From Polytrichum commune (Eukaryota > Streptophyta > Polytrichopsida > Polytrichales > Polytrichaceae), in the NCBI GenBank assembly GCA_950295325.1, contig OX485804.1, positions 40,670,001 to 40,734,000 on the forward strand: a stretch of DNA of 64,000 nucleotides. The letters run 5' to 3'. Position numbers and translations under genes: made by a program. Under the pieces are notes generated by a model. That model was given only the letters and a program-made list of their open reading frames with translations. It made no database searches and was not told the origin of the DNA. Position 1 is the stretch's first letter, and every line of letters begins with the position of its first letter. Shown piece after piece: positions 27,159 to 34,816 of this stretch.

Positions 27159-27168
27159 TTTGTAATGT
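27159..27168. repeat. 10-bp target-site duplication, left copy (TTTGTAATGT)
   Basis: Identical to 34,807-34,816. The two copies abut the ends of the Mutator-like element exactly. Removing the element and one copy joins the LINE reading frame without a break (NELAYIT into NIALALKAIKWA). Confidence 0.92.
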
Positions 27169-27215
27169 GGGGAGTGCTATCTTGTGAGCGGTGAGCAGTG
27201 AGCGGTGAGTGGTGA
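27169..27215 (+). repeat. Left terminal inverted repeat of the Mutator-like element
   Basis: It starts GGGGAGTGCTATCTTGTGAG and continues in tandem GTGAGC(G/A) units. It pairs with 34,760-34,806 with seven mismatches. Confidence 0.93.
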
Positions 27216-27836
27216 AGAAAACAAAATATTTGGTAATAGGACCCCTAGTATCCTATAACCGTGGCCTAAAGAAATAAATTTTTAGGGTTCAATAATAAGA
27301 AGATTGGGGAGGACAAACAATATGAATGCTAGATTGCAAGTAGTGAGCAATGAAAAAGACCAATATGTACACGACTCGGGGTTGCTAGTATGTGAGCATG
27401 CGAGCGTGAACCTGTGAGCCTTCAATTTTTTCCCGGTTATGGTTTGTAAATCGGTTGGGGGCCTATGACTGTGGAATTACATGTAAGGGTCTATAGTCCA
27501 AATGAACAACAAATGAGAATGTTGCTATAACAATTTTGTACTAAAAATGAACTAATATACATTCAACTGTTGAGATAATAATAATGTAATTGGAGACAAT
27601 GTGTAAGCAAACTCATGCTGAAAACAAGTGTAGCATGTTAGAATGTCTCACTATAATACACATCAATGTAAAATTTGAATACATCATAACACCATCATGA
27701 GGGTGACATCTACGAAGTCCAAAACATAAAGAACAACAAAAGTGGATTGTAGATATAAATCGGGTAGTAGGTTTAAATTGTTGAAGTTCTTGGAAATCAA
27801 AAATCAAAAATCAAAAATCAAATCATGAATACAAAC
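27216..27836. other. Sub-terminal, non-coding part of the Mutator-like element
   Basis: It lies downstream of the methyltransferase-like gene stop at 27,837-27,839. It contains further GTGAGC words near 27,345-27,420, and a tandem AATCAAAA tract at 27,796-27,822. No gene. Confidence 0.6.
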
Positions 27837-30800
27837 TTAAATATTGTCATACTCAGATGCACTAAGTTCAAAATAAGCACATACTCTAGTATCGTAATAT
27901 CTACGAGGTGAAGGTGAAATTGAAAGTGAAATAGATGAAGCATTAGCATAAGCTTCAGCTAAAGCCTCAGCATACACAGCGAGGCTATGAGGACTAAGAG
28001 AGGGGCTTCTCAATAATCCACAGTGCCGATAAAATAACGAGGTTTATATCGGCGATGGATTCATCCAACTGCAAACAACAAACCATGTATTAAAATATGT
28101 AACAACAAATTAGAATACAAAATCTAGAATTTGTAGCTGAAGTTGTTGAAAAAAAAACAAGGACAAAACTTACTCACATAAGTTAAGTAATGCGGCGTCT
28201 TCTATTGGAGTATCATCATCAAAGTCCATATCATCGCATGAGATATCAGTTGTAGGTGTTTGAAGAGGCTTTAGTACCTCATCAAAGAGTTCGGCATCAC
28301 TTTCTAATGCTAGAATATGACGATTGGATGAATGACCCGCTCTAATAGAAGAACCTGGATGAAGCAAAATATTAATTAAGAAATTACGAACATTGAAGTA
28401 TGAATTAAAAAATATATGAACTAATAATTGGATACTGTAAAATACAATACATGTAGAAGCAAATCATGTCTGCCACAATACCGCCTACATGACTCAAACC
28501 ATGAACAAATAACTTCATTAAAACTTCAGATTTCTCCTTTGTACCCCTCCATGGCTTGCTATCTTTTTGTCTACATAATTGAGTTTCCGTAGTAATAGAG
28601 TTGAAGAGAACGTCATCTGTGGTTAAATCGACCTTTGGAATTGAAGGATCCATGGTGATCAAAAGTTCTTGAGGTTGCCTCGCAATGGGAAATGAAAATG
28701 ATCGAACCAATAACAAAGCGTTGAACTTCAAAGTCTGAAAGCCAAAATAAAATAAAATATAAAAAATATACACCACATAAAAACAAAATCAAATATGAAC
28801 CAATCCAAATGAAATGCCATAATTGCTACTTACATTTTTGGACGGATTCATAGGATTTGCCAAGTGCAAGCAATTAATGATAGTCCATTCATCCTTGATC
28901 TTGAACTTATAGTTCTTGAAGAATCTTGCCACTTCTCTCTTCACCGCAGAATTGTCAGGATAAAACAAAAAAAATGCTCCATTATCATGAAGATAGGTAA
29001 GAGAAAATGCCATTAATATGTTGAAAAAACTTGGAATGTTGGCATTCCAATGGGGAATTTGAGATGGCGGATCCGAGACACCTGGAACCCGAAGACCATC
29101 TGGGTAATCCGCAATAATGAGGTCCACAACAAGTTTCTTTTGCAATTAGCCATAAAAAAAAATTATCTACCTTCACCAACCTACAAAGATAAAATATAAA
29201 TATTACAATTCATTAATGAAGACGACAATTAAAAACAAAAAATAAAATAACGTGATGAAATATGAATGAAACTTTATAAAACATGAAATAAATTAAAAAC
29301 TATAAAATAAAATGAACTCACCTTTGGTGCACGAAATAAAGCCACAATGTCATCATATGGTGCACAAAATGTACTTGTTTGCTTCTTATCCTCGATAATC
29401 TTCACAAAAGAATCATTCAAGATTAAATCCAAAGCTGTATGATTTGCAGATAAAGAAGGCAAGATAACCATCATACCTCTAAGCTTGGGAGGCATATCGA
29501 AGGTAGGAGAAGGGGTTGTTTTCTACCGCTTTGAAGTATGGAACATTGCCTCTATATTTGAAGAACAAGGTTCAGTAACTACAAGGTTGTTGAGACTGTT
29601 TTATATCGGAACATCGTCATCGTCATCGCTATCCAATTGATCTTCAGAAAGAGGTACAACTTCCATATCTAAAGCACAAAAAATATCACCCATATGAAAG
29701 ACAAAAACAAATTAAAATAAATATATACATATGAACAAAATCACATATGCAAACTAAAATAATATGCAAAAACATTTATGAAAATGAGAGTATACATAAG
29801 GGAAAACTACATATGTCCAAGAATTTGAAATTTCAATAAGGGTGGCCGTTAACGGCCATCCTTGTTAAAAGACAAAATATAAGGAAATGAGTGTATACAT
29901 AAAGAAAGAAACACATATAGAAAATAATATGAAATTTCAATAAGGGTGGCCGTTAACGGCCACCCTTGTTGGAAGATAAATCATTAAGAAAATGAGTGTA
30001 TACATAAAGAAAGAAACAAATACAGAAAATAATATGAAATTTCAATAACGGTGGCCGTTAATGGCTACCCTTGTTGAAGGAAAAAAAATGAAGGAAATGA
30101 GTGTATACATGAAGAAAGATCACATATAAAAAAGAATATGAAATTTCAATAAGGGTGGCAGTTAACGGCTCCCCTTATTTAAGGACAAAAAATGACGGAA
30201 ATGGGTGTATACATGAAACAAGAAACACATATACCAATAAATATGAGATGCAACCAAGGATGGCCGTTAACGGCCACACTTTTAGATGGAACAGACATAA
30301 GAAATATATGTATATATGTGATTTTATTTCAAAGAAATTATGTTATTAAATCAAGACTGAAACCCAAGAAGGGGTGGCCGTTAACGGCTGCCCTAAACTA
30401 GAACAGAGAAGTTAGTATCATACAAAGGGTGGCCGTTGATGGCCGCCCTAAACTAGAACACAGAAGTTGGCATCATAGAAAGGGTGGCCGTTAACGGCTA
30501 CCCATTTGGAAGAAAAATGCACCTTGATTTGAGTCGTTTTCCGGAGTTGCTATAACGTTTTCAAATATTCTAATTTATTTCCACAAAAAATCAAGTGTAT
30601 AGATTATAGCCTTGCCAATTATTCCAATTTGTTTCAAATTTTTTGGGGATAATATCAATTTTACATAAATCGTCAAAGTCTACTGAAATTAATATGGTTA
30701 GATTTCCTGCATAAAATCTTCATTTTTTGAAGATTTTAGAAGAATCTAAGATGCTCTTATTATTTTTTGGCTCTAAAATATGCAAAAAAAAATCATTTTG

Positions 30801-31476
30801 TTCATGCTATATACCGTTGGAATTGTATTCTCGGCGTGCACAATATAGTATACATTACATACCTCTAAATTTATTTTCATTTTAAAGTTAGTCTTTTACC
30901 ATTTCGTTCGTACAACCTACCTTCATCTCCGCCTCTGAAGATTGTTCTTCTTTTTCGTATTGTGTGGCTTGCTCTTCGTTGATGCCTTTGTCATAATCTT
31001 CCTCTTCATAATTTTCCTCTTCTTCATCGTCCTCATTGCATTCAGAGATGATATGTGGTTGAGCTTCACATGTACGAGTTTGATGTTCGAAGACATCTTC
31101 CGTTATCATTTCGCATGCTACAATATCTTCGTAAGTCAAATTTCTTGTTGTACCTAATAGATCCATTCCTGTCATTCGAGGACCACGTCTATTCATTCTA
31201 GTCTTTGACAATTGTCTCTTAATTGAAAAACGAAATCCATTTTTTCGCCTTTTTTTTTTGTACGCTCCACTGGAATGACCACTATTAACATGGATAAATG
31301 ACGTTCTTTTGCATTTAAACGCATTCAACTTTCCTCTATACTACATTGTTCACTCTCAACAACATGCATTTCACGTATGTTAATCATAATTCGGCCTTCA
31401 AATTTATGAACTCCAAACGGAAGCCATGGTCTCAGCATAGATAGGGAGGCTTCGTGGAGGTCATGGACTTGCTACA
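27837..31476 (-). pseudogene. Methyltransferase-like accessory gene of the Mutator-like element (seven exons, three in-frame stops)
   Basis: Predicted exons in reading order: about 31,330-31,476 and 30,917-31,328 (junction unclear), then 29,322-29,668, 28,834-29,136, 28,446-28,734, 28,174-28,354 and 27,837-28,068. The last five join in phase at good GT/AG sites; about 630 aa in all. It has a basic then very acidic N-terminal part (KKKRRKNGFRF; EDDEEEENYEEED). The core shows a class-beta DNA N4/N6-methyltransferase order: VVDLIIADYPDG (motif IV position), LHDNGAFFLFYP, a linker, KPWRGTKEKSEVLMKLFVHG, GGIVADM (motif I strand) and NRHILALESDAELFDEVL. The catalytic DPPY-type motif reads ADYP, and the FxGxG SAM loop is absent. 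In-frame stops lie at 29,601-29,603, 29,523-29,525 and 28,044-28,046. It probably descends from a methyltransferase-fold protein; enzyme activity is unlikely. Confidence 0.7.
29841..30502. repeat. Array of eight palindromes in the largest intron of the methyltransferase-like gene
   Basis: The core is GTGGCCGTTAACGGCCAC, a near-perfect palindrome centred on GTTAAC. Copies start at 29,841, 29,945, 30,050, 30,154, 30,259, 30,373, 30,428 and 30,483. Spacing is 104, 105, 104, 105, 114, 55 and 55 bp. The first units also repeat the surrounding words AATATGAAATTTCAATAAGG and GAGTGTATACAT. Outside the palindrome the units are AT-rich and more variable, so the palindrome is the best kept part. It looks like an array of dimeric protein-binding sites. 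Confidence 0.92.
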
Positions 31477-31610
31477 AGTTTTGGTCCTTAAAAAAAAAAT
31501 CGCCAACGTCACATTGCTAGCACATAATAACATAGATGTATTAATACCCATCATAATCCAACTAAATACATATATAATATAATGCAAGTAAAAATTATAC
31601 AATCAACCAT
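31477..31610. promoter_or_regulatory. Short divergent promoter region between the two genes of the Mutator-like element
   Basis: Only about 134 bp separate the first recognisable coding bases on the two strands. It includes a TATA-like stretch at about 31,567-31,580 (ACATATATAATATAATGC) placed for plus-strand transcription, and an A/T tract at 31,489-31,500. Further upstream exons on either strand cannot be excluded. Confidence 0.4.
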
Positions 31611-33921
31611 ATGAAGCTTTCGAACAAGATAAACAAACAAAAAGGCATGGACAAGATGTGCGATGGGCAACCTTGGTGTACCACCAAAACCACGAATATC
31701 CAAAATGATTTTGGATTATCTTTCCGGCAGTCTACTTGTGCATGTCATCTCCAATGTCGTAATGATTATTGTGATTACATGCATCGTAATGGGGGTCTCC
31801 GGAACAACACTGAATGGGTTGGTTCAACTTCTCTTTCATTTGTTATGGGTAATATTCCCCTTACTAGGTCTACTATTGAATATAAGGCATATCGTTCCAC
31901 ACCTGTGTGCATTGCTTTGTATCATGCTCGAATAATATACATCAACTCCACATTTGTTGGAATGTACATGGCTTGCATTCATCTTGATGTACATGATCAT
32001 CATGTGGCTAATGGTACATGCCGTGAATCATTGGACATGGCATACCAATGCGTTACAAATGAAGTATTCAAAACATCCACAGCAAAAAATTCAGCCATAA
32101 TTATGGCAACGAGCAAACAATTTCTAGCCAATTACTTTCTCAAATCTCCCGCTATTAGCGAAAACCATCATTTAGTTGGTTTATTTTTAGATGTGGTCAT
32201 AGACAAATTCAACACTCTTGCGTCTCCAAATTGTCGTAACTTTGTATCTGGATCAAAGCGTTTTTTATGTAGTGGAATGAGAACTATGGATAATATTATG
32301 GCACTTAAAGACCACTCTGCTTTTAAGTTCATCCATGGTAGTCGGTTCCCAGGGCAATCAACAGATAAAGTATTTGTTTTCAAGATGTCTGTAGACCTTC
32401 CAGGTAGTGGTGTGGAACTTGTGAAGAAGATGCAAATCGGGGGGCATATGGAGAATTCATGGATTATGTTTGACCATGTCAAACGTTTGAAAGACTGGAC
32501 GACAATGACTTGTCATGTGTACGACAGTCGATACTGTAAAGTGTTAACCATTGCGTGTTGTGACATGCAATCTGAAGATGGTGTAGCACAAATTCTCTTT
32601 TGGAAGAATTTGAATTTCGTCATGGCAGAAAATGGTGTACCAAACATAAATTTCAAAGGGTTTATGGCTTATAGTGCTCAAGCTAATTGGAATGCGGTAA
32701 GGACGATTTACGGGGATGGTGACCCAAGTCTACCCATGGTTGTACGTGAGCGTACATGTATTTTCCATTGGTCTGCGAGCTTGGATAAGGTGATCCAAAA
32801 GTATATCAAACCATCCTTGCAGTTTCAATACAAGCAAATATGCGAGGATTACAAAGACGCGAAAACAATGGACGACACCGAGACTAAATATCATGTGATT
32901 CGTTCTTGGTGGTTGTGATCCGGAGCTGCCTTGGAAGAAGACATCCTTGGCCTTTCAGAGTGGTTGGGTTTTTGGCATTTTCGTTACAGACAATGGGGTG
33001 GTCATATGTTATTTGTAAGTACATATCAAAATTTATTATTCAATGTCATTTTTTTTTCTTCCATTGTTATATATATCTTATATTTTGCAAGATTGCCACC
33101 CAACTCAGCCAAACGATGTTGGGCACTGCAAGCCATTACAGGGACTATGTCCAATGCCAAAGTCGGGACTAGGAAACATGACACACCTGCTCTAACATAC
33201 AAAGGGCTCAGGAAGGAATTTCGCTCCTCCAACAATGTGGAGTATGAATTTTGGTTTTGCCCTGACGACATCAAACGTTGTGTGAGTGACAGTAAGAAGA
33301 AATATGTGTTGGATTGGCCTATAGTACCCAACACGTGGCCGGTGAAGATAGGTACCAATCTATCGAGAGAGGAGGTTTTGGCACTTAAAAATGTTGGATT
33401 TCAACTACAGCAGAGGGAGGCATTGTCTCCTCGTCGTAGGCTTTCAACAATCGCAACTCTCTCCATCCCTCGCTCGCATTTTTGTATGCCACCAAACCCG
33501 GACGCCCACCCTACATTCAGGTTTGGGAAGACAGTGCGTCGTAATCCAACAACACCGCTGGCAGATCACAAAAACAAATGGGAGAGCGCCAGACTCATGG
33601 AAAGTTACTATGTGGTTGGGGTCACTGTCATTCCATATCCGGGCTTTGGAGTGATAATCAACATTGTCTCCAAGCAGAATATCACCTATTATGTCACAAT
33701 TGGCGACATCCCACATTGCACATGCCCGGATTTCACAAAAATGTCCTCTCATGCATTGGGAAAGAAAGGGAAATGGATGTATTGTAAACATCTTTATTAT
33801 GTGTTTAGATTTTTTGTGCAAGGTGGATTACGAGAGTGACAAGTTCATTCATGCACCTACATATACCTTTAATGAGGTCATGCGACTACTTGAACTTATT
33901 GGTATTGTAGAATGTGAGTAG
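31611..33921 (+). pseudogene. MULE-type transposase with SWIM zinc finger, broken by a stop and a frameshift
   Basis: This is a DDE-type transposase of the Mutator-like class, the presumed enzyme of the element. The N-terminus has a Cys/His cluster (CACHLQCRNDYCDYMHRN), perhaps a DNA-binding finger. The middle is the MULE core (LKDWTTMTCHVYDSRYCKVL, AQILFWKNLNFVM, FMAYSAQANWNAVR, RTCIFHWSASLDK). After an in-frame TGA at 32,916-32,918 the same frame continues (LGLSEWLGFWHFRYRQWGGH). It ends in a SWIM finger CTCPDF...CKHLYYVFRF at about 33,715-33,810. At the T-run 33,810-33,815 the frame shifts by one, and CKVDYESDKFIHAPTYTF to stop 33,921 is in another frame. An AT-rich stretch at 33,016-33,093 begins GTAAGT and may be an intron. 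Tyr at 32,670-32,672 stands where I expect a catalytic Asp (FMADSAQ). Confidence 0.8.
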
Positions 33922-34620
33922 TATTGCAAGTGTTCTATTAAGCAACATATATTTGAATGTCAATAAATGACATGTTTTGGTTTGAATTATTATAATAAAA
34001 ATTAGCAATGGACTGAAAGTATTTCAAATGATTCAATAACTTCATTTCTATTTAGACTACGACCCAACCGTGAGCGGTTTGATTGATTCACACGGATAAA
34101 TAATAACAAATTTCTAAAAATAAAAAATAATTGAGAAGATTCTACGCACATCCGCGTAGTAACCTCTTCTTCGTATCCGCCTATAGATTATTCTTGCTTT
34201 ATCACTAGCTCAATTTGGGATAGCACCAGTCAATGTAACCAACCGGATTTGAACCCGGGTTGATCCAAACCTAATACCGGTCTCTTATACAACTCGCATC
34301 CACAGGCGGATGTCTCAAAACCTAGTAGCTACCTACATATTGACTATTTCTAATATCTAATTTCCTTGCTTTTGTAGATTGTGGGCCTTAACTCAGCCCG
34401 TGAGCGGTTTGAGTGGCTCACAATTATGGCACCTACATATACATATAATGAGGTTATGCACCTACTTGAACTTCCTGGTGTTGTGGAATGTGAGTAGTTG
34501 TGCAAGTGTTGGTTGTAACTACATGTATAAGGATGTCAATAAATGACATATATTGGTTTGGATTATTATAATAAAAATCAGCAATGGATTGAAAGTGCTT
34601 TAAATGATTCATGGCAATAG
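33850..34620 (+). repeat. Direct duplication of the transposase 3' end
   Basis: Bases about 33,853-34,045 and 34,431-34,620 are two copies of one segment. Both encode the same last 22 codons (APTYT.NEVM.LLEL.G.VECE, stop) and share the following GTCAATAAATGACAT...GATTATTATAATAAAAAT. Between them lie two CGTGAGCGGTTTGA words resembling the TIR unit, and a tRNA T-arm-like stretch near 34,240-34,265. Confidence 0.8.
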
Positions 34621-34759
34621 GGCCCTTTCACGTGTGCTTCATTTAAAATACTGGCAATTTACAATTGAAAATCTGCAATTAATTTGTCAAAATTCTGGTT
34701 GTGTACCCTAAATCCGTGTGTCTTTACTAAATTTGGATTCATTGCTCATGTGTTACTGC

Positions 34760-34806
34760 TCACCGCTCACCGCTCACTGCTCATCGCTCATAAGATAGCT
34801 TCCCTC
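34760..34806 (-). repeat. Right terminal inverted repeat of the Mutator-like element
   Basis: In inverted orientation it starts GAGGGAAGCTATCTTATGAG and matches the left end. It is followed immediately by the target duplication. Confidence 0.93.
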
Positions 34807-34816
34807 TTTGTAATGT
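34807..34816. repeat. 10-bp target-site duplication, right copy (TTTGTAATGT)
   Basis: Perfect copy of 27,159-27,168. LINE sequence continues to the right. Confidence 0.92.

Follow-up and report, generated by a model that had tools for sequence, protein, structure and literature searches.

Several transposons are known to carry a second gene beside their transposase. In the Mutator-like VANDAL elements, VANC binds short motifs in tandem repeats, introns included, and removes DNA methylation from its own family, and VANC proteins and repeats diverge together (PMC5735166, PMC10398659). The Ectocarpus transposon Sola1-1_Ec32 has a gene for a ParB-like plus N4/N6-methyltransferase protein opposite its transposase, and green and red algal transposons with similar accessory genes are cited in the same report (PMC12477816). 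Here we analyze an element with a comparable layout at positions 27169 to 34806 of a 64,000-nucleotide stretch of Polytrichum commune DNA (contig OX485804.1, positions 40,670,001 to 40,734,000 of the forward strand; hereafter the window). An initial reading of its letters (the original prediction) had described a complete Mutator-like element with a second, methyltransferase-derived gene divergent from the transposase. Comparison with other copies in the host assembly (408 Mb searched; 34 stretches, the L-numbered loci, extracted) indicated that this gene, called here the left gene, is a standard component of a numerous transposon, that it descends by sequence from class-beta DNA methyltransferases, and that palindromic tandem arrays lie between the two genes.

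The left gene resembles the algal genes in lying on the strand opposite the transposase, and in its N4/N6-type methyltransferase part, and may share a ParB-like part, which is recognized here by motif only. It differs in its carrier, which is Mutator-like with a 10-bp target site duplication (TSD) and not Sola1 or another algal transposon, and in the loss of the DPPY motif; palindromic arrays are unmentioned in the available part of PMC12477816. With VANDAL VANA/VANC the element shares its Mutator-like nature, a fast-evolving second gene and tandem-repeat motifs that differ between related families and that in VANDAL lie in introns and upstream regions, and the VANDAL parallel drawn in the original prediction was supported. 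On the other hand, VANC motifs are short (YAGTATTAY) and non-palindromic, anti-silencing is proven for VANC whereas it is only proposed here, and no methyltransferase part is mentioned for VANC, the word "methyltransferase" being absent from the available text of PMC5735166. Captured methyltransferases of retrotransposons (PMC5890265) are mobile modification genes too, but of the C5 DNMT/Dam fold class and reported active, and the bdelloid rotifer N4CMT (PMC8885841) is likewise an acquired eukaryotic DNA-modification gene, but a host gene that is reported active. The word methyltransferase does not occur in the available main text of a Mutator-like element (MULE) survey (PMC6446971) or of a 2026 review of gene capture by plant transposons (PMC13317346), and a mainly open-access literature search gave, among the matches listed, no Mutator-like element that combines such a gene with palindromic arrays. 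The original prediction knew of no plant MULE with such a cargo. The algal genes show that the kind is already known; what is new lies in the Mutator-like carrier, the changed active site and the arrays of palindromes.

The ends of the window element were as exact as predicted. The two terminal inverted repeats (TIRs) were identical at 40 of 47 positions without gaps, the best of 20,000 shuffles reaching 27, and both directly abutted an exact 10-bp TSD, TTTGTAATGT. Long TIRs with a TSD of 9-11 bp, by which MULEs are recognized, are therefore present. The features of the element, in window positions, are as follows.

27159 to 27168: left copy of the 10-bp TSD, TTTGTAATGT
27169 to 27215, plus strand: left TIR, 47 bp, 40/47 to the right TIR
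27837 to 28043, minus strand: left gene, region of the last exon; its frame contains LAVYAEALAEAYA, relatives reading LPVYAEALAEAYA; borders not fixed
28188 to 28354, minus strand: exon after motif I, SSIRAGHSSNRHILALESDAELFDEVLKPL; 3' border inferred
28451 to 28734, minus strand: exon ending in motif I, here carrying a 1-nt insertion and an altered splice donor; L008 reads VADMTASTG
28834 to 29180, minus strand: motif IV exon (VDLIIADYPDG...), frameshifted here
29322 to 29640, minus strand: exon with LILNDSF; 5' border not fixed
29620 to 29634: approximate junction of a deletion of about 2.1 kb; the ParB-like and following exons that it removed are present in L008, L024 and L028
29782 to 30281: tandem array, 105-bp unit, palindrome AAGGGTGGCCGTTAACGGCCACCCTT
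30372 to 30498: second tandem array, 55-bp unit, same palindrome core, units otherwise unlike by eye
30888 to 31340, minus strand: open frame with a basic/acidic N-terminal region upstream of the arrays; probably the first coding exon, judged from like-placed frames in L008 and L032
31638 to 32918, plus strand: transposase middle part; a 446-codon frame that closes with TGA and is homologous from about codon 21
31640 to 31644: junction of a deletion of about 1.6 kb; transposase N-terminus gone
33084 to 33088: junction of a deletion of about 0.56 kb; transposase stretch with NLAETVHNKW (L029) gone
33090 to 33836, plus strand: transposase C-terminal part, SWIM-like CxCx..CxH; Pfam SWIM below cut-off
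34760 to 34806, minus strand: right TIR, 40/47 to the left TIR
34807 to 34816: right copy of the 10-bp TSD

A search of the host assembly with both ends, which the original prediction had proposed as a check, gave 704 first-look candidates for a 162-bp left-end query and 620 for a 207-bp right-end query; 40 were scored for each and all 40 matched in both cases. Seven of the eight other copies examined had exact repeats of 9-12 bp at their flanks when a few bases of slack were allowed, L005 had none, and the same kind of TIR was seen by eye after the left gene in L013 and L026. The transposon is real and numerous.

The window copy was called complete, which did not hold. Against a reference copy of about 12.4 kb (C6:16355261-16367655, L027 plus L028) it lacks three blocks of about 2,089, 1,613 and 563 bp. 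The first (element positions 2454/2464) held upstream left-gene exons together with the ParB-like motif, the second (4472/4476) about 257 N-terminal transposase codons and the third (5917/5918) a transposase stretch with the NLAE/NFAE motif. In addition, the window motif IV exon is frameshifted, the motif I exon has a 1-nt insertion and has lost its splice donor, and the transposase frame ends in a TGA at 32916-32918. The window copy is damaged and both genes are broken; the rightward transposase (31638-32918 and on) and the leftward multi-exon gene of a different type were correctly seen, but what was read as a gene of seven exons is the truncated remainder of a longer one, whose other copies add upstream exons with the ParB-like motif. 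The reference copy is itself imperfect, with GFMAN in its transposase.

Linkage of the two genes was determined from their matches in the genome. The window motif IV exon gave 1070 candidates, of which 150 were scored at 99 to 42% identity. A young family, found via its transposase and carrying its own version of the gene (copies at C3:25349629-25361302 and from C1:64526000 on), gave 805 candidates with 150 scored, many rows being at least 93% identical to the query. Using the young-family rows minus 18 weak ones of 150 and, of the 150 motif IV rows, the 31 window-like ones (at least 72% identity), with one row (C3:42798138, no listed transposase nearby) entered on the wrong strand, we found that 75 of 95 scored transposase copies, including that of the window, have the gene in divergent orientation at no more than 16 kb (2251 candidates; 65 young-family and 10 window-type; median distance about 7.2 kb), and only one transposase/gene pair in another arrangement within 16 kb. 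The remaining 20 of the 95 had no left gene among the matches listed, so that the original expectation that copies would not lack the minus-strand gene was largely, but not wholly, upheld. The layout is again divergent in the more distant family L009/L025/L030, whose transposase is only 46% identical. The left gene is a standard component of the element and not stray cargo.

Short copies bear on the same point. Six copies of 5.0-6.7 kb (L002-L005, L018 and the partly covered L019) contain neither the methyltransferase exons nor the complete transposase; they retain the ParB-like exons and palindromes, have breakpoints in common and form a non-autonomous subfamily. Of the gene, the five fully covered ones keep only the N-terminal exons. 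L002, L003, L004 and L018 have both ends and an exact 9-11 bp flanking repeat, and L005 has no exact repeat. Since four of five short copies have such repeats, copies of this kind seem to have moved, possibly with help in trans.

Selection on the left gene was estimated from nonsynonymous and synonymous divergence (dN and dS). Between L029 and L032 dN/dS was 0.12 for the ParB-like exon (dS 0.52, 109 codons) and 0.13 for the next exon (dS 0.23, 134 codons); the same two exon types gave 0.20 and 0.14 between L013 and L026, and the motif IV exon gave 0.26 between L031 and L032, with few changes. The ParB-like exon of the window's family ranged from 0.22 to 1.09. These values, with those of the window's methyltransferase exons given below, fit a decayed window family and a constrained young family.

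The degree of divergence differs between parts of the element. Transposases L027 and L029 are close over three parts (dS 0.145, 0.178 and 0.236), whereas the motif IV exons of the same two elements (L028 and L031) have dS of about 1.7 and dN of 0.86 over 85 codons, and their arrays differ. Similarly, L029 and L032 have dS of 0.006 in the transposase N-terminus against 0.52 in the ParB-like exon and 0.06 in the motif IV exon. Close transposases with a diverged second gene and array are read as the result of recombination that swapped the second gene together with its array.

The methyltransferase descent of the left gene was analyzed by profile searches. An alignment of joined left-gene exons from eight loci (A1), in which two motif I residues of the interrupted L013 row were filled by analogy with L026, was searched against PDB and matched DpnA-like 5hfj/5hek (E 4e-6) and CcrM 6pbd (positions 8-225 on 32-252, E 0.0013 for the whole sequence). 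A five-row alignment free of filled residues (A5) gave the same leading proteins, DpnA-like and CcrM, at E 7e-5 and 0.027. By hhalign, A1 with the L013 row included scored 76.6 (probability 97) against five phage methylase rows, while 50 column shuffles gave at most 18.4; since this profile-profile result stands, the weaker five-row values did not change our confidence. Pfam N6_N4_Mtase matched the left-gene frames below cut-off (0.014-0.059), and all matches of the element proteins in Pfam, NCBIfam and PHROGs were weak or sub-threshold. The motif IV exon precedes the motif I exon, which is the class-beta order and agrees with the original prediction. The left gene is, as judged from sequence, a descendant of class-beta DNA methyltransferases, and on account of the profile and hhalign matches the predicted fold assignment holds by descent. 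Among bacterial and viral sequences, 67 and 55 pattern matches to the methyltransferase part in viral_contigs and genome_contigs yielded none confirmed by tblastn, and the N-terminal part had no relatives in the phage collection.

The active site has changed. In the CcrM alignment VDLIIA(D/E)YPDG lies on SVDLIFADPPYNL (ADPPYN against AEYPDG) with the motif I region in place. The catalytic pattern [DNS]PP[YFW] is replaced by (D/E)xP(D/E) in all eight A1 rows; the DPPY position reads YPDG, FPDG, IPEG or LPEG in the families read, whose domains are down to 24% identical, and QFPD in L031/L032. Motif I keeps GTG in L009, L010 and L011 (DLTAGTG or DLSAGTG) and reads STG or TTG in L008 (the window's family), L026, L015, L016 and L031, in forms such as DMTASTG, DCTATTG and DCSTTTG, so that it appears eroded in the window's family. 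Known class-beta enzymes (CcrM, DpnA, MboIIA, RsrI) share the order of motif IV and motif I and are alignable over most of the domain, but have DPPY where the left protein has xP[D/E]G and do not show the partial erosion of motif I. A conserved replacement of DPPY differs from simple decay and suggests changed or lost chemistry. Because the catalytic DPPY is lost in the families read, "methyltransferase" here denotes descent and does not imply activity.

In longer copies (L008, L024, L028) and in the families L012, L013, L029 and L032 the methyltransferase part is preceded by exons bearing a motif such as MFMVWDGNHRLQAW, which resembles the GxxRxxA box of ParB; these exons appear ParB-like by motif only. 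They are the exons kept in the six short copies, in which methyltransferase exons were not seen. Prokaryotic ParB-methylases (Bacillus cereus Bce_0392, PMC5512222; L033; Desulfofustis phage H1) join an N-terminal ParB to a C-terminal class-beta methyltransferase, but have DPPY in L033 and DFPY in H1, and L033 matches the ParB profile. L033 itself (C12:29034-29273 region) is a phage-type fusion of ParB and a DPPY methylase on a small contig, and L034, on small contig C23, holds a recombinase-like protein and two ParB proteins. Contigs C12 and C23 are likely prokaryotic or phage, from contamination or associated microbes.

The palindromic arrays, which the original prediction did not mention, offer the best hint of what the gene does. 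In the window element they lie between the divergent genes and carry a palindrome of the type GGGTGGCCGTTAACGGCCACCC; the 105-bp and 55-bp units have little in common beyond it, and their pooled consensus contains AGGGTGGCCGTTAACGGCCACCCT. As the open frame at 30888-31340 lies upstream of the arrays on the left-gene strand, the arrays are probably in the first intron. Perfect palindromes of half-length at least 10 occur at one site in the element and at three places elsewhere in the window, two of which are AT repeats, and the rest of the window has one other array of this size, which lacks a notable palindrome. GCCGTTAACGGC had 621 exact sites in the genome against 8 for a reversed control. 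The first 50 sites listed formed 12 clusters, six with the ParB-like exon, three with the family's methyltransferase exon and three at the left end of the element, where the gene was unread.

Families can have nearly identical transposases and ends and yet carry different palindromes: GGTGCCGTTAACGGCACC in 233-bp units in the L009/L030 family, and AAACCCTGTGCGTTAACGCACAGGGTTT and GTTTGGGTCGNNCGACCCAAAC in the young family. CTGTGCGTTAACGCACAG had 502 genome sites against none for its control, and nine of its first ten clusters lay at most 8 kb from the young-family gene. For six array types beside the gene, taking the best row of each, none of 200 unit shuffles had as long a palindrome. As with VANC targets, which are family-specific motifs in tandem repeats of introns or noncoding parts, family-specific motifs are found here as arrays, with a putative role as targets. 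Two further palindromes were seen beside more distant gene copies, ACCTTGAAGCCGAGGCTTCAAGGT in the array L014:1687-2456 and GTGTCTCGGGACCGAGACAC in L016:5095-5953.

Since palindromes suit a dimeric reader and the arrangement is VANDAL-like, we favor a sequence-specific binding factor. The element has two divergent genes, one for the transposase and one for a protein with a ParB-like-motif N-terminus and a C-terminal class-beta methyltransferase fold whose active site is altered. The second protein may work as a sequence-specific DNA-binding pseudo-methyltransferase, probably without methyl transfer, and its dimer would recognize the long palindromes arrayed between the genes. Binding could then shield copies of its own family from host silencing, much as VANC acts in its elements, and protein and array would be exchanged and diverge together, so that each family protects mainly itself. 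We give this analysis-based reading a rough probability of 0.42, and it is a tentative one. A broader version is more doubtful: a second independent instance of the VANC principle, in which Mutator-like elements of a green-lineage host would have taken up a bacterial-type ParB-methylase-like protein, done away with its catalysis and made it a reader of palindromes that protects its own family; protein and array would pass between elements as a single specificity cassette and drift jointly into many self-compatible groups. If palindrome reading does lift silencing, sequence-specific self-protection of transposons would have evolved more than once, from unrelated proteins, and the families would offer a natural set of protein/site pairs with differing specificities; if the protein still methylates, this would be a transposon that marks itself, in a host of the green lineage. 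Both outcomes can be tested, as one genome holds many near-identical young-family copies with gene and array.

Several results weigh against a silencing-countering palindrome reader. For the ParB-like part, hhalign placed VWDGNHRLQA exactly on the ParB box LLAGGRRYAA with a score of 15.9, reached by one of 50 shuffles; L029 reads DGNYKFFA, with K for R, so that the motif arginine is gone; PF02195 (ParB_N) did not match the upstream exons, its four genome matches all being on small contigs (C10, C12, C23); and a PDB search with these exons found nothing. The L025 copy reads YLDG at the catalytic tetrad. The methyltransferase exons of the window's family have dN/dS of 0.27 to 3.2 with stops in several rows, and the transposase N-terminus of L029 and L032 gave 3.09, from very few changes. 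As to the arrays, a long palindrome was not found in those of L010, L011, L013, L015 and L026 or in the unit consensus of L017 and L020; L012 had no array above threshold; other rows of L009, L014 and L016 and the 55-bp unit were no or little better than shuffles; and the higher conservation of palindrome arms over the remainder of the unit was no more than a trend (P 0.06 and 0.13). GTTTGGGTCGNNCGACCCAAAC occurs 9231 times in the genome, and in two of its clusters, L046 and L047 (7.0 and 9.0 kb read), neither the left gene nor the transposase of these elements was seen, which indicates that this palindrome is not exclusive to these elements.

The main rivals are a plain transposition helper and active self-methylation. 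The second protein could be an aid to transposition or expression (an autoregulator, a transpososome component or an element-pairing factor) with the arrays as its operators and no role in silencing. Maize MURB offers a parallel, and the position of the arrays between divergent genes and the linkage to the transposase in 75 of 95 copies would suit such a role. A bacterial ParB-methylase, moreover, has been reported to act as a nonspecific nicking nuclease and not in silencing (PMC5512222). Short copies without methyltransferase exons seem to have moved, which speaks against a helper, except that help in trans is possible; we consider this explanation unlikely.

An active enzyme would methylate the palindromes at N6-adenine or N4-cytosine despite the altered tetrad and so mark the transposon's own DNA. 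The class-beta scaffold is conserved, motif I DxxxGxG is kept in L009, L010 and L011, and self-modification has been proposed for the similar proteins of algal transposons (PMC12477816). Set against this, an acidic residue stands in the families read where DPPY has its base-stacking aromatic, and motif I has S or T in place of its first glycine in L008 (the window family), L026, L015, L016 and L031, which makes activity rather improbable. A captured passenger of the Pack-MULE type without element function, its palindromes being by-products of minisatellite growth or hairpins, might explain the many decayed copies, the window's among them, and the arrays with one palindrome at loci lacking the left gene, but it is very unlikely: 75 of 95 scored copies have the gene in divergent linkage, young families show purifying selection, the gene also accompanies a transposase of only 46% identity, and six array types beat unit shuffles.

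The transposase was examined by motif and profile. Candidates for the DDE triad, the CxxH motif and the SWIM zinc finger of MULEs, namely FDHVK, TCxFH, NLAE and CxCx..CxH, were spotted by eye; GFMAD is present in L029 and L030 and missing from the window (GFMAY) and L027 (GFMAN). The NLAETVHNKW (L029) or NFAE (L027) stretch we take to be the MULE catalytic-glutamate region, and roles of the other motifs are assumed in the same way. Pfam SWIM matched transposase frames at 0.076-0.17, below cut-off, and the Pfam MULE profile (PF10551) had no match, even with E values as high as 10, in the frames of the window, L029 or L030, the host genome having 142 matches to it. Scores by hhalign of the transposase against four PF10551-positive MULEs of the same genome were at shuffle level, and searching PDB with an alignment of the transposase C-terminus brought up a single weak match of no relevance. 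Profile searches give no support, and the label Mutator-like is kept because of the ends, TSD and motif layout. Single-sequence AlphaFold models of the window motif IV exon and the transposase middle part had a mean pLDDT (predicted local distance difference test) of 40.2 and 31.9, values too low to bear on the predicted fold.

At L046 (C1:617300-624300) and L047 (C1:1181300-1190300) another gene, MAPK(R/K)(R/Q)PGERWFMLAPD..., lies beside the GTTTGGGTCGNNCGACCCAAAC arrays, and the idea that every such array marks the left gene was dropped. This gene had no Pfam or PHROGs family and was unrelated to the window gene by hhalign, which gave no support to the guess that it is ParB plus methyltransferase-like; perhaps it belongs to another element using GTTTGGGTCGNNCGACCCAAAC. 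Near a copy of the second gene, L009:5457-6194 holds a DUF7869 frame (Pfam 2.5e-36), perhaps of another transposon. The genome gave 44 matches to chlorophyll a/b-binding proteins, which place it in the green lineage; 14 equally scoring ones are clustered within 95 kb at C5:1751760-1846160.

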